Origin: Aeriscardovia sp.
GTDB lineage: Bacteria > Actinomycetota > Actinomycetes > Actinomycetales > Bifidobacteriaceae
Length of the DNA stretch: 64,000 nt
Reading direction: 5' to 3'
Assembly (NCBI GenBank): GCA_017413255.1
Contig: JAFPUC010000007.1
Span: 1-64,000, forward strand
Shown here in pieces: positions 16,897-46,939 of the stretch (the stretch's first letter is position 1; every line of letters begins with the position of its first letter). A program made the translations under genes and the position numbers. The notes below the pieces were generated by a model that saw nothing but the letters and a program-made list of their open reading frames with translations, had not been told where the DNA came from and made no database searches.

Positions 16897-17694
16897 ATGT
16901 CCCTTATAGATTCATGGATGGCGGTATGCCCGGAGGGCGAGTTTGCCGGCGTCAAAGACCAATTTTCCAAAACCATAACCCTGCAAAGGATTTTTGACCT
17001 CCATTCTTCCCTCGCTCCCTCCCAGTTTCTCTTGAACCTCGTATGGACCCACTCAAAAATAGTAGCCGCTATCGTTTTTGCCCTCTGCCTAAGGTCTAGG
17101 GAGGGAAAGGAAGATGGCGTAGACATTTCCCTCATGCGCTTTGGTGCCAGGGCAGCCTCTGGCCTGAAGGGCATGTCTTCTTCGCTTCCGCGTCCCCACG
17201 CCCTGGAAAGGCGGCCCAATATCACCCTGGCGGTAGCCGGGGCCCTGGTGCACGATGTGGGGGCTTATAAAGTTTCGAAGGATGGGTATTCCTTTGACGA
17301 CTCCTACCTTTTTCACGGCCTGTACGGCTACCTTGAATTGCACAAGGCCGGATTTGGAGAAGAGATGGCTCTTTTTGCCAGAAACCATACCGGCAGCGGC
17401 ATAACCCGCCAGGAGGTAGTTAGGGAAAATCTCCTGCTTCCTCCTCAAGACTACCTTCCCACCACAGTTGAGCAGAAAGTCGTAGCTTACGGAGACTGCT
17501 TTCACACCAAAAGCAACCCTCCGGCCTTTGTGAGTTTTGAAGAGGCTGAAAAGAGGATAGCGCGCTTTGGCAAGGGCCCAAAAAACCGCTTTGAAGAAAT
17601 GGAGGCCCGGTTTGGAAAAGTGGACCTCCTAGGAATTTCGCAGGAGTGTCAAATGCCTATTTTGGGTCGCCAACTACCGTCTTGCGGTCAATGA
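16897..17694 (+). CDS. HD-domain phosphohydrolase-like protein
   Basis: 265 aa. The HD-superfamily core is visible: LNLVWTHSKIVA near residue 50 (first His), ALVHDVGAYKV near residue 115 (His-Asp pair), YLFHGLYGYLEL and FARNHTGSGI (further metal ligands). Such proteins cleave phosphate esters or act on nucleotides; the substrate cannot be read from sequence. Divergent from zwf and convergent with the P-type ATPase, overlapping its 3' end by 38 bp. GTG 16891 is the alternative start. Missing Shine-Dalgarno suggests leaderless translation. Confidence 0.85.
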   Translation: MSLIDSWMAVCPEGEFAGVKDQFSKTITLQRIFDLHSSLAPSQFLLNLVWTHSKIVAAIVFALCLRSREGKEDGVDISLMRFGARAASGLKGMSSSLPRPHALERRPNITLAVAGALVHDVGAYKVSKDGYSFDDSYLFHGLYGYLELHKAGFGEEMALFARNHTGSGITRQEVVRENLLLPPQDYLPTTVEQKVVAYGDCFHTKSNPPAFVSFEEAEKRIARFGKGPKNRFEEMEARFGKVDLLGISQECQMPILGRQLPSCGQ

Positions 17695-19648
17695 TGGCTC
17701 CGAGGGCGTAAAAGATCGCAACCGAGTCTATAACTTCCTGAAGGATCGCGCCCACCACTACGGGTATCAGGTTGCATGCAGCCAAAATCATCAGCACCAA
17801 GGCCAGGCCTATGCCCAAAAGCACGGCCTGAAGCATGATGTTTTTAGTTTGGCGCGAAATTGCTATAGCTCTGGGCACGGCAAGGATTTCGTCGTTCATT
17901 ATCACGGCCTGGGCGCTTTCGCTGGCCACCGTGGCCGAGCCGTCGGTCATGGCTATGCCGATGTCGGAAGAGGCGAGGACGGGGGCGTCGTTTACGCCGT
18001 CTCCCACCATCATCGTCACGTGCTCTCCTCCCGCCCCGAAGAAGCGCCCCAGTTTCTTCTTTCCGCCTTCTGCCTGTCTGTCAGTCTTTTTGTCGTGGGA
18101 GACTACGGCGAGCTTTTCTTCGGGAAGGAGCCTTGCCTTTACGTCGGAAATTCCAAGCTGGGAGGCTATGGCGTCGGCAGTCCCCTGCCTGTCTCCCGTC
18201 ACCATGGTGATCTTGTAAATTCCAAGCTTCTTTAGATTTTCAATGGCGGCTTTGGAATTTGGCCTAGGCAGATCCTTTAGGACTATCCTGCCTGCAATCC
18301 GGCCGTTTTCCGCCACAAAGACCCCTATCTCATCGGGAGCCAGATCTGGGAAGGAAACCGATCCTCCAAACATCCCTTCGAGCCACTGGAGTTTTCCTGC
18401 AGCTACTTTTTTGCCTTCTACAATGCCTCTAATCCCGTTTCCGGGGTTCTCTTCCACTTCTTCTGCGGCGGGCGTACCACCCTCCCCCCAGAGCGGATCT
18501 GCGGCCTTTGAAATGCCCTTGGCAAGAATATGCACCGAGTAGGCTTCAAGGGCGCCTGCAAGCTTTAAAACTTCATTTTGGTCAAATCCGGGCAGGCACT
18601 CTACGCGGTAGACCTGGGGGTCTTTGGATGTGAGGGTGCCAGTTTTGTCGAAGAAGATATGGCTGACCCTGCTCATCTGCTCCACGACGCCTTGGGATTT
18701 TACGATGATGCTGTGCTTGGCAAGCCTTCCGATTCCCCCCATATAGGCCACTGGGGCCGCTATGAGCAGGGGGCAGGGGGTGGCCAAAACCATCACCTGC
18801 ACAAAGCGGACCGGATCTCGGCTGCAGGCCCAGCCTATTATTCCTATTACCAAGGAAACCACGGTGAAGGGAACGGCCAGAATGTCGGCGGTTTTGACGA
18901 TGGGGGCCCTGGAATCCCTGGCGTTTTCAACCAGCTTTAGAATTTGTTGGTACTCGGAGTCCTTGGCTGCAGCCGTAGCCTTCATGTACAGGGCGACCGA
19001 CTGATTCACCCCTCCCGAAAGCACCTTGTCTCCCGCCACAAGATCGGCCGGAACGGGCTCTCCGTTTATCATCGACATGTCTACGGATGCTTCCTGGCTT
19101 ACAAGAACGCCGTCTACCGGTATGGTTTCTCCCGGCTTTACGAGAAGCACCTCTCCTACGGCTATTTTTTCTACCGGCACGTCTTTTACCGCGTCTGCGT
19201 TACCTGGGTTTACAAGGTGGGCCGTCTTGGGCGCGTTTTCCATGAGCTTTGTAAGGTTCTCTCCGGCCTTGGATTGGGCAAAGTCTTCGATGGCCCCACC
19301 CGTAAATACCATGAGATCTATGATCCACGCCGCCCAAAATGTCCCCACGAGGGTGGCCGAGATGATCGCTATTACGGCCAAGATGTCTGAGCCGGCCCTG
19401 TGAGCCATCCAGCCTTTGATGATGTCGATGATCTCTATTGCCAGGGTATAGATGGATAAAAGAATAAATATGATTATTGCAACAATTCTTGCAGCTCTTG
19501 CATCATTCCAAAGAATGCCGCATATAATTCCAACCGCTATGGATACAAGCATCATTGGGGAAGAAATGAAAAATTTTCCAAATCCTCTCCAGAACACCGC
19601 CATCTTTCCGTGCCCTTTGTCAGGCATGGTTGCAGCAGCTTCAGTCAA
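17657..19648 (-). CDS. P1B-type heavy-metal-transporting ATPase with TPC motif
   Basis: 663 aa. No N-terminal metal-binding domain is seen. Actuator motif INGEPVP (usual TGE family), ion-path motif VLATPCPLLIAAPVA (TPC in place of the CPC of copper/zinc pumps), phosphorylation site DKTGTLT, a variant HP motif reading SVHILAK, ATP-binding MVTGDRQGTA and hinge MVGDGVNDAPVL. It exports or imports a transition metal at ATP cost; the metal is not decidable, since TPC pumps are poorly characterised. Start TTG 19646-19648 has AAAGGAT upstream; ATG 19627 is an alternative. Two hairpins lie in the leader. Confidence 0.93.
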   Translation of the reverse strand: MTEAAATMPDKGHGKMAVFWRGFGKFFISSPMMLVSIAVGIICGILWNDARAARIVAIIIFILLSIYTLAIEIIDIIKGWMAHRAGSDILAVIAIISATLVGTFWAAWIIDLMVFTGGAIEDFAQSKAGENLTKLMENAPKTAHLVNPGNADAVKDVPVEKIAVGEVLLVKPGETIPVDGVLVSQEASVDMSMINGEPVPADLVAGDKVLSGGVNQSVALYMKATAAAKDSEYQQILKLVENARDSRAPIVKTADILAVPFTVVSLVIGIIGWACSRDPVRFVQVMVLATPCPLLIAAPVAYMGGIGRLAKHSIIVKSQGVVEQMSRVSHIFFDKTGTLTSKDPQVYRVECLPGFDQNEVLKLAGALEAYSVHILAKGISKAADPLWGEGGTPAAEEVEENPGNGIRGIVEGKKVAAGKLQWLEGMFGGSVSFPDLAPDEIGVFVAENGRIAGRIVLKDLPRPNSKAAIENLKKLGIYKITMVTGDRQGTADAIASQLGISDVKARLLPEEKLAVVSHDKKTDRQAEGGKKKLGRFFGAGGEHVTMMVGDGVNDAPVLASSDIGIAMTDGSATVASESAQAVIMNDEILAVPRAIAISRQTKNIMLQAVLLGIGLALVLMILAACNLIPVVVGAILQEVIDSVAIFYALGAIIDRKTVVGDPK

Positions 19649-33002: not shown

Positions 33003-34868
33003 ATGGGCAAAATAAGATTTGCAAACATCATCTTTGAAAACAGCCTGCAGGAAGATCGCCACTCCAGGCTCTTTTACAGGGGGAGCGGGCAGGCGTGGAA
33101 AGAAGGAAAAACCTACTTCCTCTCTCCCAACTCCTTTTTCGACTTCACCACTTACTTCAATTCCCTTTCCGTAGGGAAGCTGCGCCTTTATACTTCAGCT
33201 TCCTCTTTTTCCCTGCACCTCGAACTTAGAGGGGGCAGATGCGAAATCCAAAAGGGAAGGGCCGGAAGCTTTTCGCATAACGGGGAATTTGAAAAAGAGG
33301 GCCTGAGCGTCCCGGCATCGCAGGAATGGCAGTCTTTTTCCATACCCTTCAGCCCGAAAGAAAGCGACGTCCTCCTCTCTTTCGCCATAAAGACGCATGA
33401 AGAGAAAGTGGAAGTGGGGAAGTGCTACTGGGAACTTGAAGTGGAAGAAAAAGAGGATGTCAGGCTCGCCATAGTCTCTACCACTTTTAAGAAGGAGGCC
33501 TACATTCAAAAAACGATAAAGGCCCTTAAAGAGGATTTCTTTAAGGATTTTGAAAACTGCCGCTTCTTTGTAATAGATAACGGAAGGAGTCTAGATCCCT
33601 CTCTGGGGGATGAAAACATATCCATCATCGCCAATCCCAACGTGGGGGGCTCCGGGGGCTTTGCCAGGGGAATGCTGGAAGCTACAAAGCGGGAGGGGGA
33701 ATTTACCCACGTTCTTTTGATGGATGACGACGTGGAAATATGCCCGGAGTCTGTGAAGAGGACGGTTCGCCTCCTTTCGATCTTAAAGCCCGAATGGAAG
33801 AAGGCCTTTGTTGCCGGGGCGATGCTTAATTTCGACAACCAAAACCTTCAGATGGAAGACGCCGGATTTATGACTAAAAGGGGCCGCTTCGCTCCTCAAA
33901 AGCCCGTGCTGGGAATGGATCAGGTGGAGGGGCTGGTAAGGAACGAAACCTTTGAGCCTTTGGAAGAGATGAAGAAGCAGGGTTACGCTTCGTGGTGGTA
34001 CTGCGCCATTGCCGTAAAGGAAATAGAAAGGGTGGGCCTTCCCCTGCCCCTGTTTTTGAGGGGAGACGATGCGGAGTACTCCCTGAGGGCCGGGGCGAAG
34101 ATTATCACCATGAATTCAATAGGGCTTTGGCATATGGCCTTCCAGGTAAAGTACAGCGCGGCGGTGGAAAGGTACCAGGTGGTCAGAAACGTTTTTGCCG
34201 CCAGGTTTGCCACGGGCTTTGCGCCGGATTCGGATTTCTTGTTCGACATGAAAAATTCCATCAGGCTGGAACTTAAAAAATTCGGCTATGACAACGCTTC
34301 CTTAGTGCTTGACGGATTTGAGGACTTTCTAAAGGGTCCCCGCTTTCTTTCCAATCCTTTAAGGGCCCAGGAGGCTTTCATAAGGGCCAATAAAGCCCAG
34401 GAGCAAATGGTGGACTTTTCTACTTTGCAGGCGCGGGCATCCGACATCCCGGAGCTTCAAAACTTCGACGTGTCTTCCCTGTCCTACCAAGATATTTATT
34501 TCAGGCGCGAGAGGATGCTTCCCGAACGAATCTTTGACTTCGCCTCGCAAAACGGGCAAAGGTTTGTAAAAACCCGAGGCGAAGGGTACGCCGTAATCCC
34601 GGCCGAAGGATGGGACTACCCGGCGAGTGAAATCCGCGGGAAAAGGGTTCTGGTCCTCATTGACTGGTTCAACCAAAAAGGGTGCATAAGGACGAAAGAC
34701 AGGGAAAGGTTTGATCAGATTTCCAGGCGCTTTGAGAGGGATATGCGCTACTTTAAGACACACCTTTTCCACCTTAAGAGCATTTGGGCATCTGCCGGAA
34801 TGGCCTTTACGACCGAACGCTTTTGGGAAGGGTACCTTCGCAGGGCAAAAGCGCTTATGGAGGAATAA
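33003..34868 (+). CDS. GT2 galactofuranosyltransferase-like protein (GlfT2 family), copy B
   Basis: 621 aa, same design as copy A: MGKIRFANII N terminus, GT-A domain with NPNVGGSGGFARGM, DDD metal site LMDDDVEI, RGDDAEYSLRA, LWHMAFQ, and a helical C-terminal domain ending near SIWASAGMAF. It would transfer a hexofuranose, probably galactofuranose, to a membrane-bound acceptor. ATG with AAGGGAGG upstream. Copies A and B share most motifs, while the 637-aa glfT2 at 38803 is more distant, so A and B may have a different linkage specificity. Confidence 0.88.
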   Translation: MGKIRFANIIFENSLQEDRHSRLFYRGSGQAWKEGKTYFLSPNSFFDFTTYFNSLSVGKLRLYTSASSFSLHLELRGGRCEIQKGRAGSFSHNGEFEKEGLSVPASQEWQSFSIPFSPKESDVLLSFAIKTHEEKVEVGKCYWELEVEEKEDVRLAIVSTTFKKEAYIQKTIKALKEDFFKDFENCRFFVIDNGRSLDPSLGDENISIIANPNVGGSGGFARGMLEATKREGEFTHVLLMDDDVEICPESVKRTVRLLSILKPEWKKAFVAGAMLNFDNQNLQMEDAGFMTKRGRFAPQKPVLGMDQVEGLVRNETFEPLEEMKKQGYASWWYCAIAVKEIERVGLPLPLFLRGDDAEYSLRAGAKIITMNSIGLWHMAFQVKYSAAVERYQVVRNVFAARFATGFAPDSDFLFDMKNSIRLELKKFGYDNASLVLDGFEDFLKGPRFLSNPLRAQEAFIRANKAQEQMVDFSTLQARASDIPELQNFDVSSLSYQDIYFRRERMLPERIFDFASQNGQRFVKTRGEGYAVIPAEGWDYPASEIRGKRVLVLIDWFNQKGCIRTKDRERFDQISRRFERDMRYFKTHLFHLKSIWASAGMAFTTERFWEGYLRRAKALMEE

Positions 34869-34937
34869 AGATACGTTTTCAGGTGTTGAAATATAAAATC
34901 AAAATAGGAGAAAATCCCCTCCAGCAAGGAGAAATTT

Positions 34938-36167
34938 ATGAAATACATGGCATATGAGGACGCAGATCTGGCGCTCAAGAGCGCGGGGGATCTGAGCGCC
35001 CTGGCCGCGAAGAAAGTGCTGGTCCTTGGGGCCACCGGCATGGTAGGGTCTGTCCTTTCCTACGCCCTGGCTAAGGCGGGAGCTTATGTGAGCGCCGCGG
35101 GCAGGAATGCAAAACTCCTGACCGAAAGGTTTGACGATGCCCAGATTAAGACCGTAGAGATCTTCGACGTCACCAACCCCGTAATAATCCGCCAGGCCAT
35201 GACTTCCGACTCTTTTGACTTTATAGTCGACTGCGCCGCACCGGCAGATCCCAAGGCGGCTATGGAAGATCCCGTAGAGGTTTTGAGGGATAACTTCTTT
35301 GGCCTCGATAACATTCTTTCCGTGCTGGCTGAAGACGTGAAAGCTGCCGAAAGGCGCGGAAGAAAGCCTGAAACCCCGGTCGTCCTGTTTGTATCAAGCA
35401 ATGCCGTATATGGCCAGGGAGAAGACGGCGCCGCATGCGAAAAGTGCGCGGGGGTTATAGATTTTACCTGCCCCTTCGCAGCTTACGCGGTAGCAAAGGG
35501 GGCTTCGGAAGCTTTGGCAGCGGCATACTCCCGCCAGTTTGGGCTTGACGTCAGGGTGGCAAGGCCCGGAATCGTTTACGGACCGGAATTTATTCCGGGG
35601 GACACCAGGCCCTTTGCCGTAGCGCTTTCGCAGGCCGCTTCCGGAAAAGATCTCCTCCTTCCCGAGGGGATGGGAAGTGTCAAGGCCGACGTCACCTATG
35701 TTTCAGACTGCGTGGCAGGCCTTTTGGCCATTCTCGCCCGTGGAGAAAAGGGATGCTACAACATCTCTAATAATGAAGCCGAAATAGACCTTTCCACCGC
35801 GCTTAAAGACATTGCTAAGGAGGCCGGAGTGGAAGTGAAAGAAGGATCTTGCTGCGCCCATAAGTGCTCGGACGGTTCTTGCTGCGGAGGATCTTCCTCT
35901 TGCTGCGGCGTGGAGAAGGTAGATGGCAAATGCGGCAAGCAGGACTCAGGCGAATGCTCTGACGGCTCATGCTGCACTATGAAGAAGCAGTCCTGCTCTG
36001 ATGGATCTTGCTGCGGAGGATCTGACTGCTGCGTGAAAGAAAAGGGAGAGTGCAAGTTCCCTCGCCTTACCCGCCTAAACTGCGATAAGCTTCAAAAGCT
36101 GGGTTGGGAACCCAAGATCGGTCCCGAAGACGGGATTGGCTTCTCTTTGAAGGCTTTGAAAAAGTAG
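34938..36167 (+). CDS. NAD-dependent epimerase/dehydratase (extended SDR) with metallothionein-like Cys-rich insert
   Basis: 409 aa. Rossmann motif GATGMVG (31-37), VSSNAVYG (catalytic Ser region), YxxxK as Y183-K187, and RPGIVYGPE, as in UDP-sugar epimerases. Between about residues 302 and 374 sits a 70-residue insertion with 17 cysteines, including CSDGSCC three times (310-316, 340-346, 353-359), before the C-terminal domain resumes at RLTRLNCDKLQKLGW. ATG with AAGGAG upstream. The SDR half would modify a nucleotide sugar for the surrounding cluster. The insert looks able to bind several thiophilic metal ions. The insertion is intact in frame. Confidence 0.88.
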   Translation: MKYMAYEDADLALKSAGDLSALAAKKVLVLGATGMVGSVLSYALAKAGAYVSAAGRNAKLLTERFDDAQIKTVEIFDVTNPVIIRQAMTSDSFDFIVDCAAPADPKAAMEDPVEVLRDNFFGLDNILSVLAEDVKAAERRGRKPETPVVLFVSSNAVYGQGEDGAACEKCAGVIDFTCPFAAYAVAKGASEALAAAYSRQFGLDVRVARPGIVYGPEFIPGDTRPFAVALSQAASGKDLLLPEGMGSVKADVTYVSDCVAGLLAILARGEKGCYNISNNEAEIDLSTALKDIAKEAGVEVKEGSCCAHKCSDGSCCGGSSSCCGVEKVDGKCGKQDSGECSDGSCCTMKKQSCSDGSCCGGSDCCVKEKGECKFPRLTRLNCDKLQKLGWEPKIGPEDGIGFSLKALKK

Positions 36168-36236: not shown

Positions 36237-37097
36237 GTGAAACGAGCGCACGCAGCAGCAAATGCGATCAAGCCCTCTACGAGCAAAATTCGGCGCAATT
36301 GGATTATTCTCAAGGCCCTTGTCCACACCGATTTCAAGCTTCGTTATCAGGGATCTTTTTTGGGGGTCATTTGGTCGGTGCTCGAACCCCTCATGATGTT
36401 TGCAGTTATGTATGTCGTATTTGCAAAGTTTTTGAGGATGTCGGATGGAACGAGGACATACCCGGTAGTGCTGCTTTTGGGCATAAGCTCCTGGCAGTTT
36501 GTAACCGACTCTACCAATGTGGGGCTTAGATCCATTGTCGACCGCGGAGACATGCTCAGAAAAGTGCATTTCCCCAACTACATAGTCGTGGTTGCGGCCA
36601 CAATGGGAGCGCTCATAACCTATGGGATAAACCTCGGGGTGGTTCTAATCTTCGCCTTTGGCTACAGGGTGCATTTCACCTGGCGAGTCGTGCTGGTTCC
36701 CCTAAACATCATCGAACTCTACTGCGTCACTTTAGGCCTTACTTTAATTATGGCCACCATGTATGCCTACTACAGGGACATAGCCCACATTTGGGACGTC
36801 CTCCAGCAGGTGATAATGTACGGGATGCCTATAGTGTACCCTTTGAGTTACGTTTTAAGGCGCAGGGGGATTGTAGGAAAGCTGGGAAAGCTGGAACTTT
36901 TAAACCCCTTTGCCCAATTCATACAGGATATCCGACACAACCTTATAGCCCCGGCCACTCAGCAGACTATTTGGAATCTCTATCCAAACAGCCTCTGGTA
37001 TCTTAAAGCCGTCCCGATAGTGTTGATGCTTTTGCTCTTTTTCTTAGGAATCTTTATCTTTAGCAAGAACAGCAAGAGGTTTGCAGAGGTGATGTAA
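36237..37097 (+). CDS. wzm: ABC-2 type polysaccharide export permease (Wzm)
   Basis: 286 aa with six predicted helices. The ABC-2 signature lies near residues 40-60: LVHTDFKLRYQGSFLGVIWS and LEPLMMFAVMYVVF. Paired by a 1-bp overlap with the ATPase gene. Wzm/Wzt exports lipid-linked glycan across the membrane; in mycobacteria the homologues export the galactan precursor. GTG 36237 has no ribosome site, but TATTAT (36224-36229) is 7 nt before it, suggesting a leaderless mRNA starting after the epimerase terminator. Confidence 0.92.
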   Translation: MKRAHAAANAIKPSTSKIRRNWIILKALVHTDFKLRYQGSFLGVIWSVLEPLMMFAVMYVVFAKFLRMSDGTRTYPVVLLLGISSWQFVTDSTNVGLRSIVDRGDMLRKVHFPNYIVVVAATMGALITYGINLGVVLIFAFGYRVHFTWRVVLVPLNIIELYCVTLGLTLIMATMYAYYRDIAHIWDVLQQVIMYGMPIVYPLSYVLRRRGIVGKLGKLELLNPFAQFIQDIRHNLIAPATQQTIWNLYPNSLWYLKAVPIVLMLLLFFLGIFIFSKNSKRFAEVM

Positions 37098-38806
37098 TGG
37101 AAGAGGAGGGAAAGAAGGCCGCACCCAATGAGGTGTTCCCCTTCATGGATGCTCCAACAGTCCTTCGGTGCAAAAACGTTTACAAGGACTTTAAACTTCC
37201 CACCGAACAGGCCACGGGCCTAAAGCAGGCCGTCATTAACTGGACCAAAGGCGTTAGGGGCTACAAGACCCAGCACGTTTTAAAAGGCATTACGTTTTCG
37301 GTGCATAAGGGCGAATTTTTCGGAATCGTCGGAAGAAACGGCGGAGGGAAAAGCACCCTCTTGAAGATAATTTCCCAAATCTACTACCCCAATAAAGGAA
37401 GCGTGTCGGTAAAAGGGAGGCTGGTCCCCTTCATAGAGCTGGGAGTGGGGTTTAATCCGGAGCTGACGGGAAGGGAGAACGTATACCTGAACGGTGCCAT
37501 GCTGGGCTTTTCAAAGGCTGAAATGGACGCCATGTATGAAAGCATCGTCTCTTTTGCCGAGCTCGAAGACTTTATGGACCAAAAGCTTAAAAACTACTCT
37601 TCCGGAATGCAGGTGCGCCTCGCTTTTTCCGTGGCGGTAAAGGCTCAGGCCGACGTTTTGGTCCTGGATGAAGTTTTGGCCGTGGGAGACGAATCTTTCC
37701 AAAGAAAATGCGACGACTACTTTACCCAGATAAAAAAAGATCCCGAAAAGACGGTAATCCTTGTCACCCACGACATGAATGCGGTAAAGAGGTACTGCTC
37801 GAGGGCCATGCTTATAAAAGACGGCCAAATCGCCTCCATCGGGGATAAAAACGCCGTAGCAGAGCAGTACACCCTGCTAAACCTTGAGGCCGACCGGCAG
37901 ATGGCCGCCGCAAGAAATGCCAAGAGGGAAAATGGGAAAGTGTGGCCGGAGGGCCTGAGCGAAAGGTGCCCCGTGCTTCGCACCTTCGCCGTCTCCAAGC
38001 CCCTTATAGGAAGCGACGAGAAGTTCGTATTCGGAGTGGAGTACGAATTTAACGAGGACAGCGATTTTTATTTGGCAATAGCCATAAACGACGTGAGAAG
38101 GGGAGGCATTACCTACGACAGCGGGGCTAAGACCTTCAGGATGACAAAGCGCGGCAGAAATACGGTGTATTTCAGCTTCCCGGTCAACCTCTTCAACAAC
38201 GGCGAATTTACCATTTACACTTCCCTCCGCGTCCCATCCGTAAAAGACGACGGATTTACCGAAATGGTGGGGGTGGCCACGGGAGACAATGCCTGCTCTT
38301 TTATAATCAGAGACCCGAGGAACGCCGACTACGCCCTCCTTTCAGACAGGGCGGCCGTAATAACGGCAAAGTCCGACGACGTCGAGACTTTGCAATGGAA
38401 CGGCTGGAGGCCGGGCACCGCCCAGGTAACGGCTGAGGCCAGAAGGAGGGAGGAGCGGACAAAAGATCCCCTGGAGCGAAGGCGAACGCAGCTTTTGGAA
38501 AGGATAGAGGAAATAGAGGGGATAAGGCTGAGGATTTTAAACGAGGCCAAGTTGGAAAAGCTTAGGAAAGAGAAGGCCGAAGGGGTGGAAAGGGTGGTGC
38601 CCATAGCCCCGGGGGTGTTGAGGCGCCTGTCGGGGGTGGACCTGAGCGGAAAAGTGGCCCAGATCACCTTAGACGACGTGACGCTTAGCGAAGAGGAACT
38701 GAGCGAGCTGACGGGTTCTAGCGAGGAAGCGCACCTTATAGACCAGCTAAATACAGTAAACGACCAGATTATCGCAAAGGCAGAGCAGGAAAAGGGGAAG
38801 AAATGA
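37097..38806 (+). CDS. wzt: ABC polysaccharide export ATPase (Wzt) with long C-terminal extension
   Basis: 569 aa. ABC domain (about 20-265): Walker A GRNGGGKST, signature YSSGMQVRL, Walker B VLVLDEVLAVGDE, H-loop THDMN. Then a Wzt C-terminal beta-sandwich (about 290-410), which in Wzt binds the exported chain's terminal sugar. The last 150 residues (about 415-569) are charged and helical (RREERTKDPLERRRTQLLER) with LSEEELSEL, an unusual coiled-coil-like tail. It overlaps wzm by 1 bp and glfT2 by 4 bp, forming one unit. Confidence 0.92.
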   Translation: MEEEGKKAAPNEVFPFMDAPTVLRCKNVYKDFKLPTEQATGLKQAVINWTKGVRGYKTQHVLKGITFSVHKGEFFGIVGRNGGGKSTLLKIISQIYYPNKGSVSVKGRLVPFIELGVGFNPELTGRENVYLNGAMLGFSKAEMDAMYESIVSFAELEDFMDQKLKNYSSGMQVRLAFSVAVKAQADVLVLDEVLAVGDESFQRKCDDYFTQIKKDPEKTVILVTHDMNAVKRYCSRAMLIKDGQIASIGDKNAVAEQYTLLNLEADRQMAAARNAKRENGKVWPEGLSERCPVLRTFAVSKPLIGSDEKFVFGVEYEFNEDSDFYLAIAINDVRRGGITYDSGAKTFRMTKRGRNTVYFSFPVNLFNNGEFTIYTSLRVPSVKDDGFTEMVGVATGDNACSFIIRDPRNADYALLSDRAAVITAKSDDVETLQWNGWRPGTAQVTAEARRREERTKDPLERRRTQLLERIEEIEGIRLRILNEAKLEKLRKEKAEGVERVVPIAPGVLRRLSGVDLSGKVAQITLDDVTLSEEELSELTGSSEEAHLIDQLNTVNDQIIAKAEQEKGKK

Positions 38807-40716
38807 GGAAAAGCGAAGCGAAGGAGTGGGAAGAGGCTGACAGAATCGTTTTCCCTTCCGCCCCGCAGGGGTGCGATCTTTCCATTCTCCCCCTCTACGC
38901 TTTGGATTGGACGCCCCCCCTGCAGAAAAAGGAGCTTTTTGATCCCGCTTTTGCCTCGCGCCCCTTCCGCCCTTCTTCCCTCCCGGCCTTCAGGAGCATT
39001 CCCCGCACGCTCCCTGCGTCATTCGACGGTTTTCGCGTGGAAAGCAGAAGGAAGATTTCCATAAGGGAGGGGAAAGCGGTCAGCCTCTGCTCCTACTTCA
39101 ACGCCTTTCCCGCAGGCTTTTGGGCCAGGTTTACGGATGTAAAGTCTGTAAGGCTTCTGGTTAAAGTGCAGGGAAAGGGAAGAATTGAAGTTTGGAAGAG
39201 CGATGCGCACGGAAGGGAGAGAAGGGAGTGGGCAGAGGGGTTTGAAGGGGAAAAAACCTTTAACCCCTCTTTCTCCATTTCCTCCATGGCCGAGGGCGGC
39301 TATCTTTGGGTAGACGTCCACGCCCAGACCCCCTCGTCTTTGGATTTTTCCTCATGGCAGGTCCCTTCTTCAAAGAAGGAGGGGGGAGAGGACGTGTGCC
39401 TTACAACTTTCAATTCCCCCCTTTCGGCGGCCAGGGCGCTTTCTTCCATAAAGGGGAGGGAAGTAAAAAAGGTCTTTTGCGTAGATCAGGGCTCCCGCCC
39501 TGCGGAGGAAGACAAAGATTTTGCCGGGGCTTCAAAGTCGCTTCCCGGCTTTAAATACATAAGGCAAAAAAACCTGGGCGGTTCCGGAGGCTTTGCCAGG
39601 GGGATGGTGGAAGCTTTAAAAGGGGAAGACCCCTTTTTCGTGCTCATGGACGATGACGCGATCCTGGAAGAAGAGAGCCTGGAGAGGATTTCGGTTTTCC
39701 AAAAGCACTGCCTTTCTCCTGTGATCGTGGGGGCGGGGATGTTTCACAGGGACTGCCCCTCCTCCCTCTTTACCTTCGGGGAAAATCTGGATTTAAGAAG
39801 GCTCTGGTACTACCCCTCCCTGGATTTGGGATACAACCACGATTTTTCAGCCCATCCCTTAAGAGAGAGCCCCAGGCTGCACAGAAGATGCGCCGAAGAC
39901 TACCAGGGCTGGTGGCTCTGCTCTGTCCCAAGGAAAGTAGTGGAGAAAATAGGCCTTCCCCTTCCCGTCTTCATAAAATTTGACGACATAGAGTACGGGC
40001 TGAGGGCGAAAAAGGAGGGGGTGGCATCCCTATGCCTTCCGGGGACGGCCGTCTGGCATCCGGCATGGCATTTAAAGGATCAGACCAGAAACTGGGTGGA
40101 GTATTTTGCCGAGAGGAACCGCTTCCTTACGGGCCTCCTCTACAAAGATAACGCATCGGGGATTTTTGAAGCATCCTTAAGGGATGAGAGCAACCTCGCC
40201 CTTCGCATGGAGTACGCTTCCATGGCCCTTAAAAACCTGGCCCTAAAAGATCTTCTTTCAGGCCCCTCCCTCTTTCTAAAAGGGCAGGAAGAAAAGAAGA
40301 AAAGGGCTGAAAAGATAAGGCTTTCGATGGAGGGAAGGCCCCTCCCCGCTTCTTCGCTCCCCCTCCCCTCCGTCCAGGCCCCGGACCCCCGGGCCGCCTC
40401 GAGGGCGAAAAGGGCGACGAAAGCCGCCCTCGGGCTTATTTACTGCGCCATGGGAAAGAGCGCCCCAAATCCCGAGCGCGAAGTCTCTTCCGCAGATTCC
40501 TGGCTTTCTTTAGCCTTCTGCTCCAACGCCCAGGTCTACGGGGAAAACGGCCTTGTAAAGATCGTGAAAAAAAACGCCCCCCTCTTTAGGAGGCTTTACA
40601 AAGAAAATCTGGCACTCACGGCCGAACTTGTAAAAAGGTGGCCCGAGCTTTCAAAGGCCTACAGGAAGGCCGACATGGCCTCCATTAAAAACTGGGAGGC
40701 TATTTTCCGCTCCTGA
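38803..40716 (+). CDS. glfT2: Galactofuranosyltransferase GlfT2
   Basis: 637 aa, the length usual for mycobacterial GlfT2. Motifs: N-terminal CSYFNAFPAGFWARF, NLGGSGGFARGMVEAL, DDD metal site LMDDDAIL, acceptor site FIKFDDIEYGLRA, and AVWHPAWHLKDQ. It polymerises galactofuranose with alternating linkages in mycobacteria. It overlaps wzt by 4 bp (ATGA) and converges on glf by 17 bp. Downstream Glf would make its donor UDP-Galf. Confidence 0.92.
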   Translation: MRKSEAKEWEEADRIVFPSAPQGCDLSILPLYALDWTPPLQKKELFDPAFASRPFRPSSLPAFRSIPRTLPASFDGFRVESRRKISIREGKAVSLCSYFNAFPAGFWARFTDVKSVRLLVKVQGKGRIEVWKSDAHGRERREWAEGFEGEKTFNPSFSISSMAEGGYLWVDVHAQTPSSLDFSSWQVPSSKKEGGEDVCLTTFNSPLSAARALSSIKGREVKKVFCVDQGSRPAEEDKDFAGASKSLPGFKYIRQKNLGGSGGFARGMVEALKGEDPFFVLMDDDAILEEESLERISVFQKHCLSPVIVGAGMFHRDCPSSLFTFGENLDLRRLWYYPSLDLGYNHDFSAHPLRESPRLHRRCAEDYQGWWLCSVPRKVVEKIGLPLPVFIKFDDIEYGLRAKKEGVASLCLPGTAVWHPAWHLKDQTRNWVEYFAERNRFLTGLLYKDNASGIFEASLRDESNLALRMEYASMALKNLALKDLLSGPSLFLKGQEEKKKRAEKIRLSMEGRPLPASSLPLPSVQAPDPRAASRAKRATKAALGLIYCAMGKSAPNPEREVSSADSWLSLAFCSNAQVYGENGLVKIVKKNAPLFRRLYKENLALTAELVKRWPELSKAYRKADMASIKNWEAIFRS

Positions 40717-41845
40717 GCATGCAGAGCACCTTGTTTTCAAAGGTGTCAAGGGCCGAAGCGATGGTCTGATCCATGTTGTAGTAGGCGTATTCGCCCAGCC
40801 TTCCTCCGAAGATTACGTTCTTTTCCCCTTTCTCCAAGGCCTCGTAGTTTGAAAGGATTTCCTTGTCTTTTTGGGTGCCTATGGGGTAATAGGGCTCGTC
40901 TTCCTTTCCTGCAAACCTGGAGTATTCGTCCCACACCACGGTCTTTTCGCTTTCAAACACTTCCTTCCTTTCCGGGTTGAAAGCCTTAAACTCTATAGAC
41001 CTTGTGGAGGGGTCTGTCATATCCGACTTGTTGAGCACCGAACATCCCTGAAAACTTCTCAGATCGTACCTTTTTTCCTTAAAGTCTATGGTCCTCCACC
41101 CCAGGACCCCGTAGCGGTATCCGAAGTACCTGTCGATGGGGCCGGTGTATACGGTGGGCAGATCTTTTGGAAGGGAGGGATCTTCAAAGTAGTCGCACTC
41201 CAGCCTCACTTCGATCTTGGGGTCTTTGATCATGGCCCCAAACAGGCTGCAGAACCCCTCTTTGGGCTGTCCCTGATAGGGGTCGGAAAAGTAGGAGCTT
41301 TCGTAGTTGAAGCGGATGGGAAGGCGGGTAAAGATGGAGGCGGGAAGGTCTCTGGGGTCGGTCTGCCACTGCTTGCAGGTGTAGTCGCGGATGAAGGCCT
41401 CGTAGAGGTCGCGGCCTATGAGGGCTATCGCCCGCTCTTCCAGGTTCTTTGCGTCCTTTGCCGCTCCCTCGGTTTTGGATTCTACGAGTTTTTCCGCCTC
41501 TTTGGGGCTCATGGCGGCGCTGTAGTACTGGTTTATGGTGCCCAGGTTTATGGGCATGGGGTAGATCCTGCCCTCGTGGAGGGTAAAGACGTGGTGCCTG
41601 TAATTTGTAAAGGAAGAGAAGCGGTTTACGTACTTCCAAACCTTTTCGTTTTTCGTGTGGAAGAGGTGGGCCCCGTACTTGTGGATCTCAATTCCGGTTT
41701 CCCTGTCGAAATAGGAATAGGCGTTTCCCCCTATGTGGCTTCTCTTGTCTATAACAAGGGTGCTGTAGCCCTCTTCTGCAGCCCTCTGGCTGATTGTGAG
41801 GCCGAAAAGCCCTGCCCCCACTACCAAAAGGTCGTATTTTTTCAC
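40700..41845 (-). CDS. glf: UDP-galactopyranose mutase
   Basis: 381 aa flavoprotein. FAD-binding YDLLVVGAGLFGLTISQRAA at the N terminus, IDKRSHIGGNAYSY, KYGAHLFHT, and late YTGPIDRYFGYRYGVLGWR with ARG-type active-site residues; C-terminal GRLGEYAYYNMDQTI. It interconverts UDP-Galp and UDP-Galf, the donor for the GlfT enzymes. The frame opens at 41956, but GTG 41843-41845 has AAAGGGG upstream and fits the family; an ATG at 41881 is an alternative. The SRP RNA promoter overlaps its upstream region. Confidence 0.95.
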   Translation of the reverse strand: MKKYDLLVVGAGLFGLTISQRAAEEGYSTLVIDKRSHIGGNAYSYFDRETGIEIHKYGAHLFHTKNEKVWKYVNRFSSFTNYRHHVFTLHEGRIYPMPINLGTINQYYSAAMSPKEAEKLVESKTEGAAKDAKNLEERAIALIGRDLYEAFIRDYTCKQWQTDPRDLPASIFTRLPIRFNYESSYFSDPYQGQPKEGFCSLFGAMIKDPKIEVRLECDYFEDPSLPKDLPTVYTGPIDRYFGYRYGVLGWRTIDFKEKRYDLRSFQGCSVLNKSDMTDPSTRSIEFKAFNPERKEVFESEKTVVWDEYSRFAGKEDEPYYPIGTQKDKEILSNYEALEKGEKNVIFGGRLGEYAYYNMDQTIASALDTFENKVLCMLRSGK

Positions 41846-41870
41846 TTTTTCCCCTTTCTCTACTTCAAAA

Positions 41871-41899
41871 TTGTAAGGCATGGGGGTATTTGCTATACT
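41871..41899 (+). promoter_or_regulatory. Promoter of the SRP RNA gene
   Basis: -35 TTGTAA (41871-41876), 17-bp spacer, extended -10 TGCTATACT (hexamer TATACT at 41894-41899). Expected transcript start about 41906, matching the RNA 5' end. Confidence 0.8.
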
Positions 41900-41905
41900 G
41901 AAAGG

Positions 41906-41990
41906 GCCTCGGCGCGGTGCCACATCGCCAAACCCCCCAGGGCAGAAATGCAGCAAGGGTAGGCGGTCCCTGGCAGGTGCGCCGGGGTTT
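41906..41990 (+). ncRNA. ffs: Small signal recognition particle RNA (4.5S)
   Basis: A hairpin RNA closing CCTCGGCGC with GCGCCGGGG. The helix 8 core is visible at 41937-41966: CCAGGGCAGAAATGCAGCAA with a GAAA tetraloop and the conserved GCAGCAAGGGTA loop, very like the actinobacterial 4.5S RNA. The closing stem followed by seven Ts (41988-41994) acts as terminator. It binds Ffh to target membrane proteins. Confidence 0.95.
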
Positions 41991-46073: not shown

Positions 46074-46694
46074 TCAAAAGATCCTAGATCCGTCCCGTAG
46101 GAAGATTAGAAGGATTAAAACGAGAATCCATGCCGCATCTACGAATAGATCCAGCGAGGGGCGGTAGTAGGAATAGAGGGCTTTTTTAATCCTGCCTTTG
46201 CCCAGATCCTGCACGGTTACGCAGGCATGGCTTTGGGACATAAACTGCACGGTGGAAGAAAACATAAGCGTCAGGCACCACGGGCAGATCGCGTTTATGG
46301 AGTAAAGCTCCTGGGAAAAAAGCCAATAGGAAAAAATCAGGGCTGCAAGGTTTCCCAGCCAAGAACAAAGGGAAAACCACTTGGGGAGTTTGGCCCTGGA
46401 AAGTCCGAGGACTGCCACGGTCACAAATACGGCTTCAAAGCATATTCCCAAAAAGCAGTTTGGAATCTTTAAGCTTCCGAAATTTAAAAAATCGGCCTGC
46501 CAGCTCTTGGCTACAGTGGAGCAGGAGATGACGGCATTTATGTCGCAGCCCAATTCCACCTTGGGGTTTTGGGCGATTTTAAGGGTGTCGGAAGCGAGGG
46601 CGAAGGAAACGGCTTCGGCCAGAAGGGAGGAGATGAGCATTAGGCAGTAAAGCCAAACGGGACCGTGCCTCCACTTCTCTTTCCATGATGCCAT
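46074..46694 (-). CDS. Vitamin K epoxide reductase (VKOR) family protein
   Basis: 206 aa with four or five helices. The redox motif CPWC (AICPWCLTL) sits at the helix start near residue 136, and loop cysteines CDINAVISC occur near residues 50-58, giving the four conserved cysteines. In bacteria VKOR reoxidises a DsbA-like protein with quinone, driving disulfide formation outside the cell. No DsbA partner is encoded nearby. Start abuts the DUF3107 stop by 1 bp. Confidence 0.92.
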   Translation of the reverse strand: MASWKEKWRHGPVWLYCLMLISSLLAEAVSFALASDTLKIAQNPKVELGCDINAVISCSTVAKSWQADFLNFGSLKIPNCFLGICFEAVFVTVAVLGLSRAKLPKWFSLCSWLGNLAALIFSYWLFSQELYSINAICPWCLTLMFSSTVQFMSQSHACVTVQDLGKGRIKKALYSYYRPSLDLFVDAAWILVLILLIFLRDGSRIF

Positions 46695-46939
46695 CAGGCG
46701 GTTCTCATATATCCCATCATGGGGTGAATCACGGGTTCCACCCTGGCAAACCCTACGCAGGAACCGGAAATCAAAAGCTGCTGGCCTTCCTGCCCCTCTA
46801 TGATGCAGTGGCCGTTTTCGCTCACGGCTTTTTCAATTTTTTCCATAACTTCTTTCGCGTCTTCCTGGGTGGTTATGGCTACCGATCCCTGGATGTTTTT
46901 TAGGCCTATCGTGACCATTATTTCTTTTTTTTCACTCAT
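46694..46939 (-). CDS. DUF3107 family small protein
   Basis: 81 aa, small alpha/beta protein conserved in Actinobacteria. Pattern: IMVTIGLKNIQGSVAITT, an amphipathic helix (AKEVMEKIEKAVSENG), then LLISGSCVGFARVEP. Function not established. ATG 46937-46939 overlaps the stop of the kinase-like gene by 8 bp (ATGAGTGA); a farther TTG 46954 and ATG 46945 are possible but less coupled. Confidence 0.8.
   Translation of the reverse strand: MSEKKEIMVTIGLKNIQGSVAITTQEDAKEVMEKIEKAVSENGHCIIEGQEGQQLLISGSCVGFARVEPVIHPMMGYMRTA

Follow-up and report, generated by a model that had tools for sequence, protein, structure and literature searches.

Metallothioneins are small stand-alone proteins (PMC7387436). 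The described types, such as SmtA/BmtA, the Pseudomonas metallothioneins, MymT, and the eukaryotic metallothioneins, have a high cysteine content, CC and CxC motifs, and predicted disorder in the metal-free state. The bacterial Zn metallothioneins contain histidines and show a GATA-type zinc-finger fold (PMC10612145). On the enzyme side, the closest described systems are extended SDRs, including the UDP-glucuronate decarboxylase 2b69, the Campylobacter CDP-glucitol-pathway reductase 8v4g, and the UDP-glucose 4-epimerases 4zrn and 7ys8. These share their fold, the glycine motif, and the Ser-Tyr-Lys residues with residues 1–304 and 375–409 of the SDR described here, which is encoded in the window (the whole stretch of 64,000 nucleotides analyzed). 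None of the PDB SDR alignments examined contained a cysteine-rich insert in the loop, unlike the SDR of the window. The literature searched yielded neither a cysteine-rich insert in an SDR or epimerase nor a natural metallothionein–enzyme fusion.

The SDR gene and its neighborhood

The features of the locus are as follows.

33003–34868, + strand: upstream glycosyltransferase of the GT2 family, GlfT2-like (Pfam PF00535, E=7e-7)
34869–34937, + strand: intergenic leader with a conserved TATAAAAT box and a Shine-Dalgarno region, from a five-species alignment
34938–36167, + strand: extended SDR of the NAD-dependent epimerase/dehydratase family, intact ORF of 409 aa
35397–35498, + strand: catalytic residues S154 (35397–35399), Y183 (35484–35486), and K187 (35496–35498)
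35436–35471, + strand: core cysteines C167 and C170 (CEKC) and C178, the last located 5 residues before the catalytic Tyr183, from alignments
35841–36059, + strand: cysteine-rich insert, aa 302–374, with 17 Cys and 6 CC pairs, predicted disordered at 305–372
35865–35885, + strand: CSDGSCC unit 1, aa 310–316
35955–35975, + strand: CSDGSCC unit 2, aa 340–346
35994–36014, + strand: CSDGSCC unit 3, aa 353–359
36060–36164, + strand: SDR C-terminal segment 3' of the insert (PRLTRLNCDKLQKLGWEPKIGPEDG...), from alignment to insert-free orthologues and PDB SDRs
36237–38806, + strand: downstream ABC exporter pair, Wzm-like permease and Wzt-like ATPase
38803–41923: GlfT2 galactofuranosyltransferase (+) and UDP-galactopyranose mutase Glf (−), from Pfam Glft2_N and GLF

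The 409-aa protein matched the Pfam family PF01370 (Epimerase) with 118 bits against a cut-off of 20.9 (E=5.7e-34). The glycine motif GxxGxxG is present as GATGMVG (aa 31–37); among 19 diverse SDRs compared, G31 and G34 are invariant and G37 is nearly so, and Y183 and K187 are likewise invariant. S154 was assigned from its motif position (SSNAVYG). The C-terminal end is of the usual type (...LGWEPKIGPEDG...), with the LGWEP segment intact, so that the sequence-only reading was right in describing the SDR motifs and the C-terminal segment as preserved around the insert. The protein is a member of the extended SDR family, all of the features tested being present. Its designation as an "epimerase" in that reading was borne out for the extended SDR fold but could not be extended to a specific activity: the protein scored 19.3 bits against the GalE-specific equivalog TIGR01179, where 262.3 are required, and it fell below all cut-offs among the 25 NCBIfam equivalog families listed. 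The name is therefore a fold-level label only, as decarboxylases and reductases are found among the nearest structures alongside epimerases. The N-terminus shows no obvious signal peptide, and the insert is thus expected to reside in the reducing cytosol.

As judged from domain matches and gene order, the SDR gene sits in a syntenic galactofuranose-type polysaccharide export cluster. The upstream glycosyltransferase is syntenic in all species of the genus and at the loci of the insert-free orthologues. The exporter ATPase matched PF00005; the Wzm-like permease had no Pfam match, and its assignment rests on synteny and sequence. A role in CDP-alditol metabolism, hinted at by the 8v4g match and by IspD-like neighbors of distant homologues, was unsupported: of the seven genomes of the genus, six have only one IspD-family gene each, which in the present genome lies on another contig.

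The window also encodes a P1B-type heavy-metal ATPase (17660–19627, −), which scored above the cut-offs of TIGR01525 and the Cd/Zn-like TIGR01512 and had no HMA domain match, and a VKOR family membrane protein (46077–46751, −), for which nothing suggested a connection with the SDR. The sequence-only reading had noted both as present in the window. They do lie there, but the VKOR gene is ~10 kb and the ATPase gene ~15 kb from the SDR gene, on the opposite strand and outside the syntenic cluster. We rejected a link of either to the SDR, as the window is all that they share with it.

Content, rarity, and spread of the insert

The segment from C305 to C372 contains 17 cysteines in 68 residues, with three CSDGSCC units and six CC pairs, exactly as first counted. 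We surveyed the cysteine content of the predicted genes (928,029 bases) in 70-aa windows. Cysteine accounts for 1.44% of the residues, and the insert has the highest cysteine density of all protein segments in the 928-kb genome; the runners-up contain 10 Cys, in an ORF of spurious appearance, and then 9 Cys. The binomial chance of at least 17 Cys in 68 residues is ~1e-16, or ~3e-11 after multiplication by all proteome positions, and a chance origin of this density is excluded. The survey detected no further metallothionein-like ORF in the genome. Tandem Repeats Finder called no DNA tandem repeat at the insert, because the repeat units have diverged at synonymous sites.

We found the insert at the identical site in each of the six genomes of the genus with a detected SDR gene (five complete genes and one partial, from independent assemblies), in frame and with intact flanks. 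The inserts are 45, 48, 73, 82, 106, and 106 (partial gene) residues long, with 11, 11, 17, 20, 24, and 25 Cys, respectively. This comparison of lengths, which had been proposed as a check, agrees with the interpretation of the insert as an internal repeat expansion rather than a frameshift or fusion. CC pairs occur in all of the inserts, together with 0–2 His and 0–1 aromatic residues. The inserts of three species (L036, L037, and L019) also carry a CxCxCx4CxC block (CACGCDQDPCGC, CSCGCGGDPCKC, and CACGCGGDPCTC), absent from the species of the window, which by eye brings metallothionein motifs to mind. The seventh genus genome (87% complete) had no match to the SDR gene. The genomes with the insert are reduced (0.6–0.93 Mb). 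The named close relatives are MAGs of Aeriscardovia sp. (Bifidobacteriaceae) recovered from stomach compartments of yak and water buffalo; all carry one isolate-name series (RGIG) and probably stem from a single project. One genome, G003, holds, besides a full copy, a contig-end fragment (G003:C27:2-295) that matches SDR residues 1–98 at 80% identity; this fragment represents either a paralogue or contamination from another strain.

Two orthologues with 41–43% identity, L104 (G016) and L105 (G029), come from a sister genus within the family. Their loci keep the gene order of glycosyltransferase, SDR, permease, and ATPase, while their loop comprises ~12–17 residues with 0–1 Cys and no Cys array. 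The simplest history would be a gain of the insert in the lineage of the genus, after which it lengthened and shortened in frame.

The insert had no match in Pfam, NCBIfam, or the PDB. Among ~395 Actinomycetes genomes, we obtained weak matches only, and those whose frames were inspected were Cys/Arg-rich and apparently out of frame. The DNA pattern for CSDG-x-CC, scanned in 396 genomes of the phylum, matched in five other genomes, in frames that look spurious and in no SDR, and at about the rate of a reversed-pattern control. In these scans, no SDR outside the genus showed CSDGSCC-like repeats. The prokaryotic metallothionein family PF02069 matched none of four insert variants and was absent from the genus genomes. 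The search for similar inserts covered ~400 genomes of the class, the 396-genome pattern scan of the phylum, and whole-protein degenerate-pattern scans of GTDB contigs. The sequence-only reading knew of no described epimerase with such an insert, and none came to light in these databases, genomes, and the literature searched.

Selection on the protein and its predicted structure

The dN/dS values of the SDR core between species (0.036–0.097) point to strong purifying selection. Between the CSDGSCC copies within one gene, 16 codons differ synonymously and 2 non-synonymously (D/E and S/D). Random changes would be ~80% non-synonymous (p ~6e-8 by a conservative count), which argues for purifying selection on the amino-acid unit. 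We argue that this unit is probably maintained while its copy number drifts. In the insert alignment, identity is 90% in the Cys-containing columns and 51% in the remaining ones, a difference that is supportive only, since this alignment contains many gaps and is prone to anchoring on Cys.

AlphaFold2 was run on 19 sequences. The SDR core was predicted with confidence (most blocks >85 pLDDT), and the sole stretch of very low confidence, predicted to be disordered, was 305–372. In the model, the insert exits the core after the strand 300–303 and re-enters before the helix 383–386, in a loop of the C-terminal substrate domain. Comparison of the core with nucleotide-sugar SDRs in the PDB gave VIA Z values of 32–35 (34.9 for 8v4g). 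In GalE-type enzymes, the loop at this position carries nucleotide-contacting residues, and the insert is thus probably located at the edge of the pocket for the substrate.

The core cysteines C167, C170, and C178 (CxxC...C) do not vary among the five complete sequences of the genus, 5–16 residues before Tyr183, and the insert-free orthologues L104 and L105 lack CEKC...C. Like the insert, these cysteines are specific to the genus. The three may act together with the insert, or may form a small metal or disulfide site of their own.

The genome contains a complete and compact copY-copA-copZ operon (L176, L177, and L088; G000 contig C14:129820-132847), on a contig different from that of the SDR, which indicates that copper handling exists independently of the insert. 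The operator core in the copYAZ promoter reads TACATTTGTA (GTCTACATTTGTAGAC), and the CopY tail is Cys-rich (CRC-x5-CGC) and ends with CRCKGGKNGCGC. An operator scan of the SDR promoter region detected no CopY operator or cop box, and no metal-responsive operator was recognized at the SDR gene. Copper control of the SDR via CopY was rejected, as the cop box is present at copYAZ but not at the SDR gene.

What the loop may do

With moderate confidence, we read the insert as a metallothionein-like Cu(I)/Zn(II) thiolate loop in a cytosolic extended-SDR enzyme of glycan synthesis. The SDR would be a cytosolic nucleotide-sugar enzyme of the galactofuranose-type polysaccharide export cluster, in which a loop of the C-terminal substrate domain grew into a flexible chain of 45–106 residues with 11–25 Cys. 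From its composition, we infer that this loop binds metal; it would most likely chelate soft metal ions, either Cu(I) or Zn(II), as thiolate clusters, and the metal may protect or modulate the enzyme. The loop would then provide an enzyme that has a different primary task with its own buffer for metal and thiols, in cells without another metallothionein-like ORF.

We favor this reading because the insert occupies the same site in 6/6 genomes and is absent from the sister-genus orthologues, and because the 16:2 codon ratio and the retained Cys columns accompany a strongly constrained core. The CC pairs, the CxCxC-x4-CxC block in three species, the few His, and the near absence of aromatics also speak for it, and here the initial description of the insert as metallothionein-like proved apt as far as composition goes. 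Furthermore, the disorder predicted for 305–372 is expected of an apo-metallothionein-like chain, and the insert is the densest Cys segment of a genome with no other metallothionein-like ORF, in a genus where PF02069 is absent. Several observations count against it. The insert has no sequence match to metallothionein families or structures, so the likeness is compositional; the Cys vary in number and spacing between the inserts, which speaks against a single defined metal cluster; and no metal-responsive operator was recognized, while CopY, CopA, and CopZ are already present. The insert differs from the metallothioneins in being a loop inside a 409-aa enzyme, without detectable homology to them, and its 0–2 His place it closer to the Cu-thioneins and the eukaryotic metallothioneins than to the bacterial Zn metallothioneins (PMC10612145). 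It is not a member of any metallothionein family, given the lack of an HMM match and of a stand-alone form, but it may work like one.

The location of the insert raises another explanation, in which the metallated or oxidized loop, together with CxxC...C near Tyr183, blocks or deforms the active site, thereby tying glycan synthesis to the metal or redox state. According to the model and literature knowledge, the insert would emerge in a segment lining the nucleotide pocket of GalE-like SDRs, and this site and the co-acquired, genus-invariant cysteines shortly ahead of the catalytic Tyr make gating by metal or redox possible. The hypervariable length (45–106 aa) is, however, unusual for a specific gate and fits a buffer-like role better than a precise switch, and we consider gating unlikely. 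Alternatively, the loop might be mainly a sacrificial thiol or disulfide reservoir and not a metal binder. This fits its very high thiol content and disorder, as well as a family from host-gut niches with oxygen exposure; bifidobacteria are not known to have glutathione or mycothiol, which also counts for a reservoir. The CC-rich and CxCxC composition with few His and aromatics is, on the other hand, typical of metal thiolates, and there is no adjoining thioredoxin-like partner, VKOR being a membrane protein ~10 kb away. We regard such a reservoir as rather improbable.

The drift in length could also reflect a near-neutral repeat expansion, that is, a tolerated low-complexity loop without function, lengthened and shortened by unequal exchange and Cys-rich by descent. 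Two species with 95% identical proteins differ in frame by 73 versus 45 aa of insert, and the L036 insert holds a duplicated block. The codon data disfavor a purely neutral repeat, the Cys are preferentially kept, the insert persists in every one of the six reduced genomes, and cytosolic thiols are costly and reactive, which together make this account slightly less credible than a thiol reservoir. All named members of the genus are MAGs, and an assembly artefact had been named as what would overturn the finding. The independent assemblies, five with a complete gene and one with a partial gene, show in-frame inserts, intact flanks, and conserved synteny and render an assembly or frameshift artefact negligible, and the synonymous divergence between species indicates that the inserts are not copies of a single error; we take the artefact as practically ruled out.

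Metallothioneins are usually conceived as separate small proteins. If the metallothionein-like reading is true, metal buffering or control has been grafted naturally onto glycan biosynthesis, inside the loop of a metabolic enzyme. A bolder version, which we hold to be improbable, is that this lineage of genome-reduced bifidobacterial relatives placed its metallothionein inside an enzyme of cell-surface glycans, with the loaded or oxidized loop and CxxC...C switching nucleotide-sugar metabolism by copper, zinc, or redox. The small gene, the readily deletable insert, and the insert-free orthologues make the question directly testable.

One of these orthologues, L104, has apparently lost the catalytic Tyr (DDLQATAK, versus DSYAVAK in L105), and it may thus be inactive or altered.
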